From Litomosoides sigmodontis (lineage: Eukaryota; Nematoda; Chromadorea; Rhabditida; Onchocercidae): a stretch of 64,000 bases of DNA. This document shows, piece by piece, positions 1-7,300 of the stretch. The translations under genes were made by a program, and so were the position numbers. Where the stretch lies: NCBI GenBank assembly GCA_963070105.1, contig OY718803.1, positions 11,443,347 through 11,507,346 on the forward strand, written 5' to 3'. Positions within the stretch are counted from its first letter, which is position 1. Each line of letters opens with the position of its first letter. A model generated the notes under the pieces. It ran no database searches, was not told the DNA's origin, and was given only the letters and a program-made list of their open reading frames with translations.

Positions 1-1840
1 TCTATGATATGATACAGTTCACAGAAAGATTTTGAATGTATTTCGAAGCGAAAATATCGTCACTGTTAGCGCAAATTTACGGTAGGAATAGTAACGAAGT
101 ATCGTATATGGAATTCAGGAAGTTGTTTAAATTTTGAAAATAGAAAAAAGAGTAAGCTAAATGGGTGTGGTGAGTGGAGCAAAAAGGAAGAGAAATGAAA
201 AAGTTTGTCAAATTTCGTGATTAATTTAAAACAGTCAAAAGAGAAAGGGCAATGATTTTGCTCACTGCTCACAATATATATTTCAATTTTCTATTATTTT
301 TTTCTTTCATTTGTTCCATTATTCATTTCACTGTTTTCATGATACGGTATGGTTATAGTATTGGCATCGATGTAGGCGCTATCATTACGTGATGTATTTT
401 TCCTTTTCATATTCCTTTTTTTCTGATGTTTAGGTGCGATTATTACTGCGTATATACATATGTTTCTTTTTTCCATGGAATTATTAATTTTGTAACACTA
501 ATTCCAGCATACTTACCATCAGATCAGATAAAAGACTTCTTGAGTGAGTTATTTTGTTTTCGAAAATTATTTTGCTTTGCCTTTTCCAGCAGGCGTGTTA
601 TCAAGCGATCTTTTCCTGATGTTATTTCTGTTTACTATACCCTGATTTCTCGTCATACGTATTTTCCTTTGCATTTCTTCTTTCGATTTTCTAACTTTTT
701 TCGTGCAGTCCAGTATCGGTTACTTTGGGAAGCCCTGTCAAACGGCGTACAACGCGTTCCTCTAAACTGAATTGAGGAGGCCTAAATTTGTAACAGCAGG
801 AATGACTGATCGCTGTAGCGCGAAACTTCTTTAACCTGGTTTCCTAGCCGGTTCGCTCACTGAACACGAAATCCCGGTATCTCAATCATCGTATTTTTAT
901 TTATTCCGTCCTTGTTGTCGTATTTAATGCCCACCAACCATAATGAGAATCTTGTTTACAATTTCCTTTGCATTACCAAGCTTTGTTATCAATTTCCCTT
1001 TTCCTTTTTCTATGCCGCAAATTCATGCCTCTGTGCATTCATCTATTTCATGATTTTGACGAGAAAAATCTGTCATTTTGTTTTATTATATTATGTGATA
1101 AATGTTGTAGCAAGATCTAATTTCATGCGACTTTTTGGGGAGAACGAGGTATGGGTTGGGGTCCGTGCAAAAAAAAGCCGTAAACGTGGACAGAGTTCAT
1201 ATAAAAAATTAGTCCACATTTGACGATTTTGTAATACAAAGCAACATACAATTATGAGGTGTGGAATAAAGCATTTCAGATGCATAACTGTAGAAGCATG
1301 CTAGATGGATGAGTAGACTCATGAATCCCGCACTAGACCTTTCTGTGGTTATGAAGAAATTCCGGAATAAAGTCTAGGACTTCCACCGTATGATCTACAC
1401 ATATATTATTCCCACAAAAATGAGAATTCGCATCCTCGAAGTACATAAAAGATTTGAAGACACATAAGCCGCACTGTATTTCCGTTCTTTTCAGTGATGC
1501 AGTAGTTACTCACCGTTAACGTGTGAAAGGACCTTATTCCATTGCATTATACATTACTCTTCAATAAAAATTCATTACAATGCTAGTATTTTGTAGGGTA
1601 ACACATCGTAGTAATGCACATGTAGAGCGAGCATGTTTGTGATCTTTTTTTATAGGGAACATTGATTAAAAAGTGATTTTATAGGAACAGTGATTAAAAA
1701 CAAGGCAGAATCTGTAACGCCAAGCCAATTTAAATTCAACATGTTTTACATCAATCTGAGAGACTAAACCGTTTGAATACGCCATCAACAAAATTTTCAT
1801 TCTCATAACAGTGGTGAACCAACGAAACAGTTTAATATGT
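1..1840. other. Intergenic, no gene recognised
   Basis: AT-rich sequence downstream of the eL27 stop codon. Open frames at 426-770 and 912-1223 have low-complexity, phenylalanine-rich translations with no family resemblance and no clean exon boundaries. I see no tRNA and no repeat of note. Confidence 0.5.
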
Positions 1841-2537
1841 TCAAAAGCGTAATTTAGTGAAAAACCATCTATTCTTGCCAGTTTTGTATCGTTCTTCAAA
1901 TTTCGTTTTCACTTCTATCCTCGCCCGTCGTTTTTTCCCGGGCTCTTTTAAAACCTCCTTGTTGACCAAATTCTTGTCTAACAGTACATCGACCGAATAT
2001 CTAAAAACTAGCATAACACAAACCTCTTCGTACTACTCATTACAAAACCGAAAGCTTTTTTGAATTTTCCGCGATATACAACACACAAAACAAACTAAGT
2101 AAGTATTCCTCAGCATCTTTTCTCTGGATTAGCTTACAAGAAATGCAAGTCAAATGGCAAGTTATAATTGTAGAGCAGAAAAAACAACGCGACAAATACG
2201 TCAGAGTTAAAAAGTTTGGCCTACACGGAGAACTAATGAATCTTTTTCGTACACAAGTTCCTCATTATTGCATGTCTTTTAAGAATTGTGCAAAGCACAA
2301 GACTGCTATTGGTCATATTAAGAGCGTTCATTTGTATCATCAATATTAAAGGAGTTTCAAGAATTTTAAAGCTACCCTCATGAACGCTCATAAAATAGAA
2401 TTGAAAACTTTTCCTTGCCTACATAAAAATTTTGGCCCTTTAATAGCATTTCATTCCAAGCTGCCAAGCGACAAGATGCGAGACACGTAAATAAATAGAT
2501 AAATAAATAAACAAATAGGTAAATAAATAAAATAAAA

Positions 2538-2576
<39 letters not shown>

Positions 2577-3664
2577 ATATATATATATATATATATATAT
2601 GCACATGACCTCTTTTTTTGCTGAATTTGCAGATATTAGAGGAAACGAACACAAGGAATCACAATTATAACGTAATTCAAAAAAAATTAAAACAAACCGT
2701 GTTGGAAGCAAATTCGAATAGCTAGCAATACCAACGAAAGGGCGTAATTTGCTTCTACTCTTAATTTTTTTCTTACCCATCCGCTTTGTTACCTGAAATT
2801 ACGTGAGCATTCCTTTTGGAGAAAGACCTGTTATATAAATAAGCTCATGTTTTGCATCTTCCGAAGATTCCGCTGCACATTTCTTCACATGAATTACTTC
2901 ACAAAACTGGTAGCTTGAATAAAAAGTGATGTGTCAAATAGAAAAACAGAAACAAAAAAGCAAACATTCAAATACCGCAGCGATAACGCAATCCACATGT
3001 GCTAGACCAATAGGTTTTCTACAATTTCTAAGCAAAGAGATAAAGTGCACTAACTCGGCCGAAAACTTTGAAATGGAGAACAAACAGACATGCATCAGAG
3101 TTAAAAAGCTTTGCCCACATGAAAATTCAATGGATCTTTTCGGGCACATCTTTCTCATCATTCACATGATTGTTTGCTTTATAGGGACCAATTATCTGGT
3201 TTCATCAAACTGATGTATTTGTATGATTTTTCACCGCCTGTGCTTGTTTGAGAATTCAAACCTTTAGTAGCTCGCAGCGAAATATCTCTTTGATAGTATT
3301 TTTTTTCATTAATGATTTTTTACCAATCCGGACAAACAAATTTCACTGAAGTTTATAACATACTGCTTGCCTTTTAATCTTAAATTCAAGGTAGGGATCT
3401 ATGTAACCTACCACAACTATCTTTCGATGAAGTGTAAAAGATGAAGCTCCTAGTAGCAAAGATGTTTTCCGTGACTTTTGGAAATTACAACACTTAAAAT
3501 AGACCAACCATTAGTGGATACTTATCAATACCAGCAATTAATGCATGACTGTAAGCACGATCAGATGATCCCTCATCATATGCTTTCACAATAATTGCTT
3601 TTCGACCAGCAAAACGCCCACCCAACACCAACACCACTTTTCCGGGTTTCATTATCTTCCCCAT
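1841..3664 (-). CDS. rpl-27: 60S ribosomal protein L27 (eL27), complete, 3 exons
   Basis: Structural protein of the large cytosolic ribosomal subunit. The exons on the minus strand are 3664-3509, 2792-2698 and 2000-1841. The introns start GTTGGT and GTTTGT and end CAG and TAG, with phases 0 and 2 that fit exactly. The join gives 136 residues, the usual eL27 length. The family signatures are [14 protein letters not shown] at the N terminus, GIDKYP near residue 47, MGKKKI near residue 57, LLPTRYSVD near residue 80 and a [12 protein letters not shown] terminus. The start at 3664 is chosen because it opens the conserved N terminus and lies 16 bases after a TTTCAG acceptor (AG at 3682-3681), a likely spliced-leader site. 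LSG1 lies upstream on the same strand. Each intron carries a snoRNA candidate, and the second intron also holds an AAAT/AT microsatellite. Residue 52 is Met where C. elegans and human have Lys. The family call is secure. Confidence 0.97.
2191..2276 (-). ncRNA. Candidate box C/D snoRNA in eL27 intron 2
   Basis: Read on the minus strand inside intron 2. A box C-like ATAATGA lies at 2268-2262 (one mismatch to RTGATGA) and box D CTGA at 2204-2201. The ends can pair through GACA (2276-2273) with TGTC (2194-2191), and more weakly further in. Directly upstream of box D is TTTTTAACT, which extends to a 10-base complement of the conserved 18S rRNA stretch AGTTAAAAAG. The block is clearly related to the candidate in intron 1, with the same guide and box D and roughly two-thirds identity around them. 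By the box D + 5 rule it would target the first A of that A-run. Human U36 (SNORD36) and yeast snR47 modify this region (recalled, not checked). The imperfect box C makes this the weaker copy. Confidence 0.6.
2489..2600. repeat. AAAT/AAAAT microsatellite followed by (AT)n
   Basis: About 90 bases of imperfect AAAT units followed by about 20 bases of alternating AT, inside intron 2 of the eL27 gene. It produces long tyrosine/isoleucine-rich open frames that are not genes. Confidence 0.95.
3089..3168 (-). ncRNA. Candidate box C/D snoRNA in eL27 intron 1
   Basis: Read on the minus strand inside intron 1. It has a perfect box C ATGATGA at 3161-3155 and box D CTGA at 3098-3095, about 56 bases apart. 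The flanks CATGTG (3168-3163) and TGCATG (3094-3089) can pair over six positions, two of them G-U, giving the terminal stem typical of the class. The sequence before box D is AGCTTTTTAACT, complementary over 12 bases to the conserved 18S rRNA stretch AGTTAAAAAGCT. The fifth base before box D pairs with the first A of the A-run, the expected 2'-O-methylation position. A position inside a ribosomal-protein intron on the sense strand is the normal setting for such RNAs. Boxes, stem, guide and host gene all agree. Expression is untested. Confidence 0.78.
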
Positions 3665-3669
3665 TTTAG

Positions 3670-4390
3670 GGACACGTATCCTGAAACCATTGATCATAAC
3701 GACAATGTACAGCTTACGTTGCCAAAATACACTCTAGTTCCTATTAACTATACAGCAAAAACGTAGCAGAACGAAAAACAAGCCCAACCCCACCACGGTT
3801 TCCTATCAGCTCTACCTAACCAACTAGTTTTGTTGTACCACAGACCATCATTTTGACCATACCAGCTCTCCCACAATGCAAAACCAAATCCCACTTCAGG
3901 ATAGTGGTGCTCAACTGCTGTTGTGGAACCGTGTGGGAAATTGTAAATGACCGAAGTCACAAATGAATACCCCAGTCTCCGATTAGAGAACTAGATCTCC
4001 AATTTTTTTGGTATTTTGTGCAACCATAAATCCGATATCTCACATTTGCATTTGTATTGAACATATTTAAAGATGAAATCTACCAGCGTCAAGAATGGAA
4101 CGTCTCACAATTGCAGGTGTGTCACAACGGGGAAAAGGGAATGCAGCCTAACGTTGCAAAGTAAACTTATCATATTTCTTGCTTTTGAAATACCAAATTC
4201 ACAGAAAACTGAAGAGTTAACGCGACAGCAATTATTGATTTATACACTTTATTGCGCAAACAACGAGAACAATTATTAAATTTCAAAGGACTATAGTTGT
4301 GCTCAGCTGTAGATGCAACAATAGTACCAAAGGATTTTATTTACTATGTCACCAACAAAAATCCTTCGTATCAGTTATTAGTCAACTTTT
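3670..4390. other. LSG1-eL27 intercistronic region with a GC-richer block
   Basis: About 720 bases separate the LSG1 stop from the eL27 start. Positions 3748-3960 are close to 50% GC, against roughly a third in the surroundings, and carry a 70-codon minus-strand open frame with an odd Trp- and Gly-rich translation. I recognise neither a protein nor a standard small RNA there. The trans-splice acceptor of eL27 (AG at 3682-3681) lies at the downstream edge. Confidence 0.5.
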
Positions 4391-7300
4391 TTAGTCAACA
4401 AAAATCCTTCGTAATTTTTCTCGTTTACTCTTATTGAAATGTTTCTTAGGCGGTCGAGCTTCATCTCTCTGTGATGAGGTTAAGTTCGGTGTAGAACGCA
4501 GGGAGCGAATATGAGCTGAGTTAGTTGAACCAAGAAAAAACTGCTCATCAACTAATTTTTCTGAGTGCTTGATATTTTGTAATAAATGGCGTTTTTCAAG
4601 CTGCAATCAAAGAAAAACACTTTAAATGTAGTAAGTAAAATTTAAAAAGCACTTACACTTGCAAAATTTTATGAAGTAATTGCGACGATAAATCAGACCG
4701 ACTATATCTCACCTGCTGCATAATGCTATTTGGCTTCAGTTTCACTGAACTCGCCTCATCCAAAACATCGTATGTTAACTTATCAAACTCCCTCTGATCC
4801 ACATTTGGTGGTGCAGCAATCCATTTTAGTTTGCCATTTACAACATCTTTCAGCACTAAACGTGCTGCCCGTGAACAATCCGCTACGCCAGATGATGACA
4901 TATAGCCTGAAATGGGAATATTAATAAAATGTACCTGGAAGTGTTAGAAATTCGAACCTTACCTATGGCTATCTCAAAAATATTATCAGAAACACCCTTC
5001 AACGCAGAATAAAATCCCTAAAATTGAAACTAAATCATTCACTTGTAGCAGTTCTAAAAATTCGTCTCTCCACTATATAATAAGGCATAATCTGTAACAC
5101 GAGAACATATTACTTGCAATCATTAATTGGGAAGAGTAAAGGAGTAAGACGAAATAACAACATATGAACTCTGCAAGCGTCATCTGATTGTGGCAATACG
5201 GTCAGCTGACTTTCTAAATTGACATGACTCGCACAAATATAACACTTTATAAAATATTCCGAAAATTTTGAAGTGTGGAAAAAATTAACCTCTAATGAAT
5301 GCAATTGCTGTAAGCAGATCATGCGCACTTGGTATTGTTTCCTGATCACTATCATCAACGCTCATCAGCATTACTGAGTAAATTTTTTCAAAATATCTGC
5401 GTGGGACCCGCGTTAATAGTAATTCAACGGGAGATAAGTACTCGCGCATATGATCGATCGAAAGAATTCCATTCAAAATCATTTCACTTCGACTTAGTGC
5501 AAATGATGGCATCACAAGTCCAGGGCAATCACATAAAGTAAGCTAAAAAACAGAGTGTATGAGTTATACCATCTATGCAGATCGTTTACTTTACATTATC
5601 CATCCGATAAATAAGCATCAATTCATTTTAAAGAGTTACTGAAAACTTTGTTTTATAAAGCTGTAAACTACCTCTTCATCAACCACAAGTGTTTGAAAAT
5701 GTCTCGTTTTCCCAGGCGTAGCCGATACTTCTACCTTCTTCCGACTCAGTAGCTTATTTATCGTAGAACTTTTACCAACATTTGGGTAACCCACCATTCC
5801 AACAACAAGAGAATGTTTTCCTGCTCCATGTCCTTCGACGTGACCTCGAGATTTCAAGAACGATATTAGTTCCTAGAAAACAACTGTTTGAAACGGAAAA
5901 ATTCAAAAAAGTATCAGCTTCTATCGTAAGTTAAAAGTAACACTTTATTTCATCTAAAAACTTAATCCGGCTTAACCGATAATCGTCCCAACAAGTATAT
6001 ATGCTCAAGAGTAAGTAAATATGAATATGAAAGCAAAAAAAATGAATAACACGTATATCGGAGAATTAAAAATTTCCCATAGATAGTTTTTCGCAGAACT
6101 TCCTAATTATCTGGTAAAACTTCTGATTATTTACAGTGTTGCTACATCAAATTTAATACATTCCAAACAATTAAATTGACTTTATGAGATAGTTGTTTTT
6201 AGTTAAATGCAATTACTAATGCAAGTTCACAGAATATATTTTGAAGAACTCCCGAAAGTATGAATTAATCAAGCAGTGAATAATCAGCAACTAAAAGGAA
6301 AGTGCTAACTGCAGCACGGTGTAAAATTGGAATTTTTCCTTCCAAAACATCAACACTCTGTGACAACTTCGCTTCAGAACTCTTTCGTTTGCTACTGTTA
6401 TCGTCCCCATTTATACTGCTAGGTGATCTCTCGGAATTCAGTTCATCATTCTCCCTTTTCTCTTCCTTGTGTTGCTTAGTCATCTTCTCTATTACTGAGT
6501 CGCTCACACTAGTTTCTGGCTCCAAAGCCGACCTACAACAGATATTTTCAGGAAAATTATAAAGATAAAAATTTTTAACAAGATTTTAAACAGATTTAAA
6601 ATTTTCAATTTTCAAAAACTTACCAAAAAACAGCATCTATATTATTTTCCAAGAACCAATTTTTCCACATCTCTATCTGCCTTTTCGACAACAAATCAAC
6701 TTTATTGACTAAGTACATACTTCGCTTCGAGGCATCACATTCCTTAATATATGCTTCCAGATCTAAGTTACGGAACAGCAACGGATTGCGAGCATCCAGA
6801 ATCTGAACAAGGCAAAAATGTGTCATTGTAAAACTATAAGTCAAAATACTCCACGTTGAAAATACATTAATAAACATAGGACATATTCTCGATTTTCCAT
6901 AAAATAAGCTAACTTGAACAACGATATCGCTCCGTTCGACGACTCGCCAAAGTTGTCTCCACAGCTCCAAATTTCTCTCAAATGGAGTCAATAGTACACC
7001 ATGACTCTGAAAATATGATACTGTTATGAAATACATTTGAAATCAGGACTTAAAATGCGAAATAAAGCAAATATACTTGAAAACTGGAAAGAAATTACCT
7101 CTTGTAAGTCAGCAAGATTTTTACGCCATTCCAAAAAATGCATATTTTCTAATCGTGTTAAATCGTCAGCAGTCTCCCAGGCATGTTTCGGTGGTCGACG
7201 AGGAATCCGCAGTCGGTCACCGTATTTTCTATGCAGTTCGTCCACTGAGTGAGCGGTACTTGTATTGACAACAACTTCCGACTTTTTCCTCAACATTGTA

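Follow-up and report, generated by a model that had tools for sequence, protein, structure and literature searches.

Two homologous box C/D-like elements that match the worm's own 18S rRNA are carried by the two introns of the eL27 ribosomal-protein gene in the 64,000-nucleotide stretch of Litomosoides sigmodontis DNA analyzed here (the window), and it is highly probable, judging from sequence, that they comprise one likely working guide of the U36/snR47 type in intron 1 (copy 1) and one probably weakened duplicate in intron 2 (copy 2). A filarial genome would thereby gain a likely guide for 18S methylation, and the two copies would offer a paired case for the duplication and decay of intronic snoRNAs. 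Ideas on how snoRNAs work are left unchanged; the system itself is not new but a further instance of a kind already well known.

A preliminary description of this DNA had placed the elements in the two introns of eL27 in sense orientation, and the gene model bears this out. The exons were placed on the minus strand by tblastn, and joining the three of them at GT-AG sites gives an intact reading frame of 136 amino acids with no internal stop (Table 1). Introns of ribosomal-protein genes are a usual class of host for snoRNAs, as stated in the relevant part of PMC3412847. As expected, comparing the eL27 introns with phage records yielded no match. Intron 2 also contains a long AT-rich microsatellite of ATAA and AT units (window 2500-2600), situated between exon 2 and copy 2, and a weak mir-297 match arising from this microsatellite is regarded as spurious. 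Upstream of eL27, the minus strand also has a reading frame whose P-loop-like stretch (GYPNVGKSS) suggests a putative GTPase gene at about 5740-5830 (minus strand).

Table 1. The eL27 gene and its two intronic elements, in window positions
Feature	Position	Strand	Basis
eL27 exon 1	3509..3664	-	tblastn and exon joining; start codon at 3664
eL27 intron 1, 716 bases, host of copy 1	2793..3508	-	GT-AG
eL27 exon 2	2698..2792	-	tblastn and exon joining
eL27 intron 2, 697 bases, host of copy 2	2001..2697	-	GT-AG
eL27 exon 3, with stop	1841..2000	-	tblastn and exon joining
Copy 1, predicted box C/D snoRNA gene of SNORD36/U36 type	3089..3168	-	Rfam RF00049, 27.8 bits
Copy 1 closing stem, 5′ arm CATGTG	3163..3168	-	pairs with 3089-3094 TGCATG in the minimum-energy fold
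Copy 1 box C, ATGATGA	3155..3161	-	sequence and pattern search
Copy 1 guide AGCTTTTTAAC	3100..3110	-	11 Watson-Crick pairs with own 18S 644-654; base 3103 faces A647
Copy 1 box D, CTGA	3095..3098	-	sequence and pattern search
Copy 2, diverged duplicate of copy 1, possibly in decay	2191..2276	-	identical to copy 1 at 58 of 79 aligned positions
Copy 2 box C-like ATAATGA, with A for G at the third position	2262..2268	-	sequence, by eye
Copy 2 alternative box C reading ATGAGGA	2259-2265	-	sequence, by eye
Copy 2 guide CTTTTTAAC	2206..2214	-	9 Watson-Crick pairs with own 18S 644-652
Copy 2 box D, CTGA	2201..2204	-	sequence

Near its 5′ end, copy 1 has a box C that agrees with the consensus RTGATGA; box D lies near the 3′ end in both copies, and the minimum-energy fold closes copy 1 with a stem of 6 pairs, at a folding z-score of -1.0, which is not unusual. 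The pairable ends previously ascribed to both introns are found in intron 1 but are absent from the minimum-energy fold of the intron 2 element. When positions 1700-3800 were searched with cmscan (E up to 10), the Infernal model for SNORD36 (RF00049) aligned to copy 1 over its full length (model 1-77 of 77, over 3166-3090) with 27.8 bits, just under its gathering threshold of 30 bits. As the score is under that threshold, copy 1 is not filed as a certified RF00049 member, and it is likely, from its sequence, a divergent guide of the U36 type. A cmscan of the whole window returned 0 families at the gathering threshold. Across the whole genome (65,877,608 bases in 7 contigs), the SNORD36 search, in which 70 of 27,615 first-look candidates were scored, gave no match at E up to 0.001 and six weak matches at E up to 10; copy 1 was the best of these (E 0.78), and the other five scored 23.0-26.4 bits. 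As a control, the same model was run on 14 prokaryote genomes, of which 11 gave matches at E up to 10 with scores that did not exceed the cut-off. The pattern TGATGA-N35-65-GCTTTTTAACNCTGA had a single match in the 65.9-Mb genome, namely copy 1 in intron 1, and 0 for the reversed-pattern control. In copy 1, box C, the guide AGCUUUUUAAC and box D are in register with those of the vertebrate SNORD36/U36 RNAs, and the likeness extends to the full-length alignment and the 18S site equivalent to A668, whereas the score below the gathering threshold and the missing D′ guide for 28S A3703 set the worm element apart.

The guide had been described as complementary to a conserved 18S stretch. Complementarity stands, with 11 Watson-Crick pairs between copy 1 and positions 644-654 of this species' own 18S (reference: L015 2028-3865) and 9 between copy 2 and positions 644-652, but the target itself reads GGTTAAAAAG and not AGTTAAAAAG, so that the last U of the guide faces a G. 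A first pattern search found nothing because AGTTAAAAAG is absent from this 18S; the stretch ...GCTGCGGTTAAAAAGCTCGTAG... is present in 11 of the 11 copies found. That U, which lies before box D and beyond the Watson-Crick run, can pair with the 18S as G-U. The rule of box D plus five would place the modification on A647, where the A-run begins, just as had been predicted. Human and yeast 18S have an A beside the target where this worm has a G, and if the guide works, this change in the neighboring 18S base would be tolerated through the G-U pair. From its sequence context, A647 appears to be the residue of human A668 and yeast A619. The earlier attribution of the region to U36 in human and snR47 in yeast agrees with the tables of PMC3511168 and PMC8817022, where the site appears as Am668 (U36A/B, human), Am619 (snR47, yeast), Am621 (AtU36) and Am612 (CD25, Dictyostelium). 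The likely copy 1 guide would thus share its 18S site with snR47 (RF01203) and with the Arabidopsis AtU36 at the positions given in those tables. RF01203 is not among the Rfam matches listed for this region, where one overlapping match of the same clan is omitted without being named.

How much weight the complementarity can bear differs between the copies. The duplex of copy 1 with 18S 644-654 is its longest Watson-Crick run on any rRNA among the best six duplexes per rRNA. For copy 2, other runs of 9 Watson-Crick pairs occur among the best six per rRNA at 18S 1661-1670 and 1084-1094 and at 28S 1977-1985 and 912-921, with up to two G-U pairs in addition. Both copies have a guide of at least nine bases upstream of box D, 11 in copy 1 and 9 in copy 2, and a run of 9 is within chance. 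As a yardstick, 21,327 20-mers were sampled from the minus strand of the window at every third position, both copies included; anchored Watson-Crick runs to 18S, 5.8S or 28S of at least 11 were found at 111 of these positions and runs of at least 9 at 1,339, the corresponding numbers within the two eL27 introns being 3 and 92 of 1,374. The copy 2 guide is worth little alone, because an unrelated locus (L050) reaches the same 9 pairs, and what weight it has would come from the homology of copy 2 to copy 1. For copy 1, the weight lies in a combination of features, namely the boxes, the full-length family alignment, the known site in register, the class of host and the presence of a duplicate. 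Copy 1 is very likely a working guide.

The homology between the copies is clear. The two are mutual best matches within the window, with a local alignment score of 54, while the best unrelated tile reaches 24, or 28 in the reverse comparison (844 tiles per direction), and intron 1 aligns locally to intron 2 at 57, the highest of 500 dinucleotide shuffles reaching 32. Before box D, TTTTTAACT is identical in both, and by segment the identity is 14/14 for guide and box D, 7/8 for the box C region and 31/46 for the interior that separates box C from the guide; between the boxes, CG-AAAAGATYCATT is well conserved. The claims that the two elements are related, share their guide and have diverged elsewhere, and that a likely guide for rRNA methylation was probably duplicated locally within a ribosomal-protein gene, are supported. 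A DNA search of the genome with each copy found only the query itself and no third copy (one candidate scored each), and, as the search with copy 1 missed copy 2, it is insensitive at such divergence.

Copy 2 is structurally weaker than copy 1, a point absent from the preliminary description, which had given both introns a C-like box, a CTGA and the same guide; the CTGA and the guide are indeed present in both, as is box C in copy 1, but the box C of copy 2 is changed. ATAATGA differs from RTGATGA by one core mismatch, and the alternative ATGAGGA, which overlaps it, also has one mismatch and leaves a closing stem that looks poor by eye. In the K-turn, the third base of box C, a G, engages box D in a sheared G-A pair, and, on its sequence, the change in copy 2 would fall where it matters for that structure. 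The minimum-energy fold of copy 2 has no closing stem (folding z-score -0.19, not unusual), and in the cmscan of 1700-3800 no Rfam family matched it as a snoRNA at E up to 10, its sole contact being the unrelated lncRNA Yar_1 (15.1 bits, threshold 50), whose match at 2130-2193 overlaps the last three bases of copy 2. The altered box C, the lack of a predicted stem and the lack of an Rfam match give a nearly even prospect that copy 2 is a dead snoRNA pseudogene and copy 1 the sole gene; the full identity of guide and box D beside a much less conserved interior suggests constraint and so speaks against this, although two sequences cannot prove it. That same identity can be read as a sign that both copies work and provide a double dose of one 18S modification. 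By the K-turn rules, ATAATGA would lose the sheared G-A pair, and the poor stem left by the alternative box, the stemless fold and a guide pairing no better than that of L050 also count against two working copies. Nevertheless, we regard two working copies as a serious possibility, if one short of even, as ATGAGGA retains the G-A core and two-copy guides in adjacent introns are known, as for U36 in introns 3 and 4 of chicken RPL7A in the relevant part of PMC2653536. Copy 2 may be decaying, and between decay and function we consider the two about equally likely.

A more skeptical reading is that intron sequence happens to combine box-like words with a common T-rich word and that there is no snoRNA at all. 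The complementarity alone is modest, and the 14-mer CTTTTTAACTCTGA by itself does not exceed chance, with 3 matches in the genome and 3 for its reversed control. Moreover, a relaxed pattern, TGATG-N38-67-TTTTTAACNCTGA, has 5 matches in the genome (reversed control 0), and four of these lie at unrelated places outside eL27 that likewise combine TGATG, TTTTTAAC and CTGA. In these four, where the words are TGATG, TTTTTAACN and CTGA, the guide-like stretch can form 9, 8, 8 and 8 Watson-Crick pairs with 18S; Rfam gives nothing for them at E up to 1, and they align to the copies at 21-24, which indicates no homology. As the eL27 introns are homologous over 80 bases, the SNORD36 alignment runs the full length of the model, the stricter pattern is unique and the pairing points to the exact known methylation site, a chance origin is very improbable. 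It is also improbable, if less so, that the elements guide something else, or have a second target in 28S or another RNA through a D′ guide. The good conservation of CG-AAAAGATYCATT in both copies would fit such a role, yet among the best six duplexes per rRNA for 18S, 5.8S and 28S, none of the D′ targets of either copy has a convincing D′ box by eye, and the 28S guide of SNORD36 is missing although its target is present.

The absence of this 28S guide had not been noted in the preliminary description. In the part of PMC3511168 that covers these RNAs, U36 also serves 28S Am3703, and snR47 is also listed for 25S Am2218, whereas no such guide is seen in the eL27 copies. The Rfam consensus for SNORD36 has GAAUUUCUUcac before CUGA, which by our own reading is the D′ guide for the Am3703/Am2218 site; this guide to 28S (GAAUUUCUUCAC) is missing from copy 1 and copy 2, although a D′ guide to 28S is not common to all forms of U36, and its target GTGAAGAAATTC persists here at LSU 2661-2672. 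According to the relevant part of PMC2653536, human U36A and U36C divide the two U36 sites between them, and in chicken a single RNA serves both. A genome search for a separate guide of the U36C type (ATTTCTTCACNTGA) gave 10 matches against 4 for the reversed control, and the 6 that were inspected, those ending in CTGA or TTGA, have no C/D frame by eye. The other 4 end in ATGA or GTGA, and one of them lies in the window at 2879-2892 on the plus strand, antisense in intron 1. The worm may have a dedicated 28S guide that so strict a pattern misses.

We infer that the likely guide in copy 1 is transcribed, processed, bound by protein and used for methylation in the way general to the box C/D family, in which the snoRNA matures from its host intron and forms a K-turn bound by 15.5K, NOP56/58 and fibrillarin. 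Once spliced and debranched, the intron would be cut back as far as the closing stem; boxes C and D would fold as a K-turn and recruit these proteins; AGCUUUUUAAC would pair with 18S GUUAAAAAGCU; and fibrillarin would methylate the base opposite the fifth guide position upstream of box D, which is A647. The duplicate probably arose by local copying to the next intron, or the reverse, and copying in either direction would have kept the guide while the rest drifted. Such cis-duplication to a neighboring intron has already been described in nematodes, platypus and sponges, in the relevant part of PMC3412847, and is common in chicken according to that of PMC2653536. The eL27 pair, two related elements in consecutive introns of one ribosomal-protein gene, appears to fit this known class, unlike which one of its copies looks impaired.

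The host differs as well, since the chicken U36 copies described in PMC2653536 reside in RPL7A and those of the worm in eL27. We tentatively suggest, as a history that falls somewhat short of probable, that a filarial U36 guide came to lie in eL27 rather than in the RPL7A host of chicken, shed its 28S half although the target persists and was then copied to the next intron, where box C is decaying and the guide and box D have stayed fixed. If true, this would be a snapshot of a guide RNA changing its address and losing function. The literature search found no paper on a snoRNA in C. elegans rpl-27, or on SNORD36, snR47 and 18S jointly, and we do not claim that the locus is unpublished.

The search for the 18S target also revealed how the rRNA genes are arranged. 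A near-identical 18S-5.8S-28S unit adjoins 11 of the 12 chromosome ends (L004-L014, L015-L040), the 18S pattern giving 11 matches, one near each of these ends, with repeat counts to be read as at least those given. At the 8 ends read through, 18S, 5.8S and 28S are 99-100% identical to the unit at the right end of C1, are transcribed towards the telomere and lie about 4.3-4.9 kb, from 28S, from the TTAGGC tract, with no N in the pieces read. The right end of C5 and both ends of C6, seen as 3-kb loci only, are 98.5-98.7% identical. The left end of C4 holds only a 118-base 28S remnant, and C2 left, C3 left and C4 right carry extra partial pieces of 28S farther inward. Copying of subtelomeres from one end to another, or the collapse of arrays, could account for the end units. 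C. elegans differs, with rDNA tracts on two chromosomes in the relevant part of PMC9071541, and in the main text of the assembly paper (PMC10817185) the terms 'rDNA' and 'ribosomal' are both absent.

Among other loci brought up by these searches, the third genomic CTTTTTAACTCTGA (L003) is rejected as a further copy, with no upstream C box by eye and with Rfam matches that are all below threshold and to unrelated families. L050 (G000:C1:4511815-4511950, minus strand) combines TGATGATGATG with CTTTTTAACACTGA and CTGA and can pair with the 18S A647 site through the same 9 bases as copy 2; with no closing stem by eye, no Rfam match and no homology to the eL27 copies, it is probably a chance occurrence, although it might instead be an unrelated guide RNA. 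Three of the five SNORD36 matches beyond copy 1 were inspected (L047, L048 and L049), the remaining two scoring 23.0 bits, and L048 and L049 have no convincing boxes by eye. L047 (positions 31-100; G000:C3:6190220-6190289, plus strand) scores 26.4 bits to SNORD36 and carries CGATGATAA and CTGA with the guide AGCGTTTGATCG, which has no Watson-Crick run of 9 in 18S, 5.8S or 28S; its 5′ half has a 10-base run to 18S before an unclear D′. On its sequence it is likely another box C/D snoRNA, with a guide differing from that of SNORD36. Two U3 snoRNA genes lie 2.7 kb apart on the minus strand (G000:C2:9194185-9194400 and 9196885-9197100), at 123.2 and 122.9 bits.
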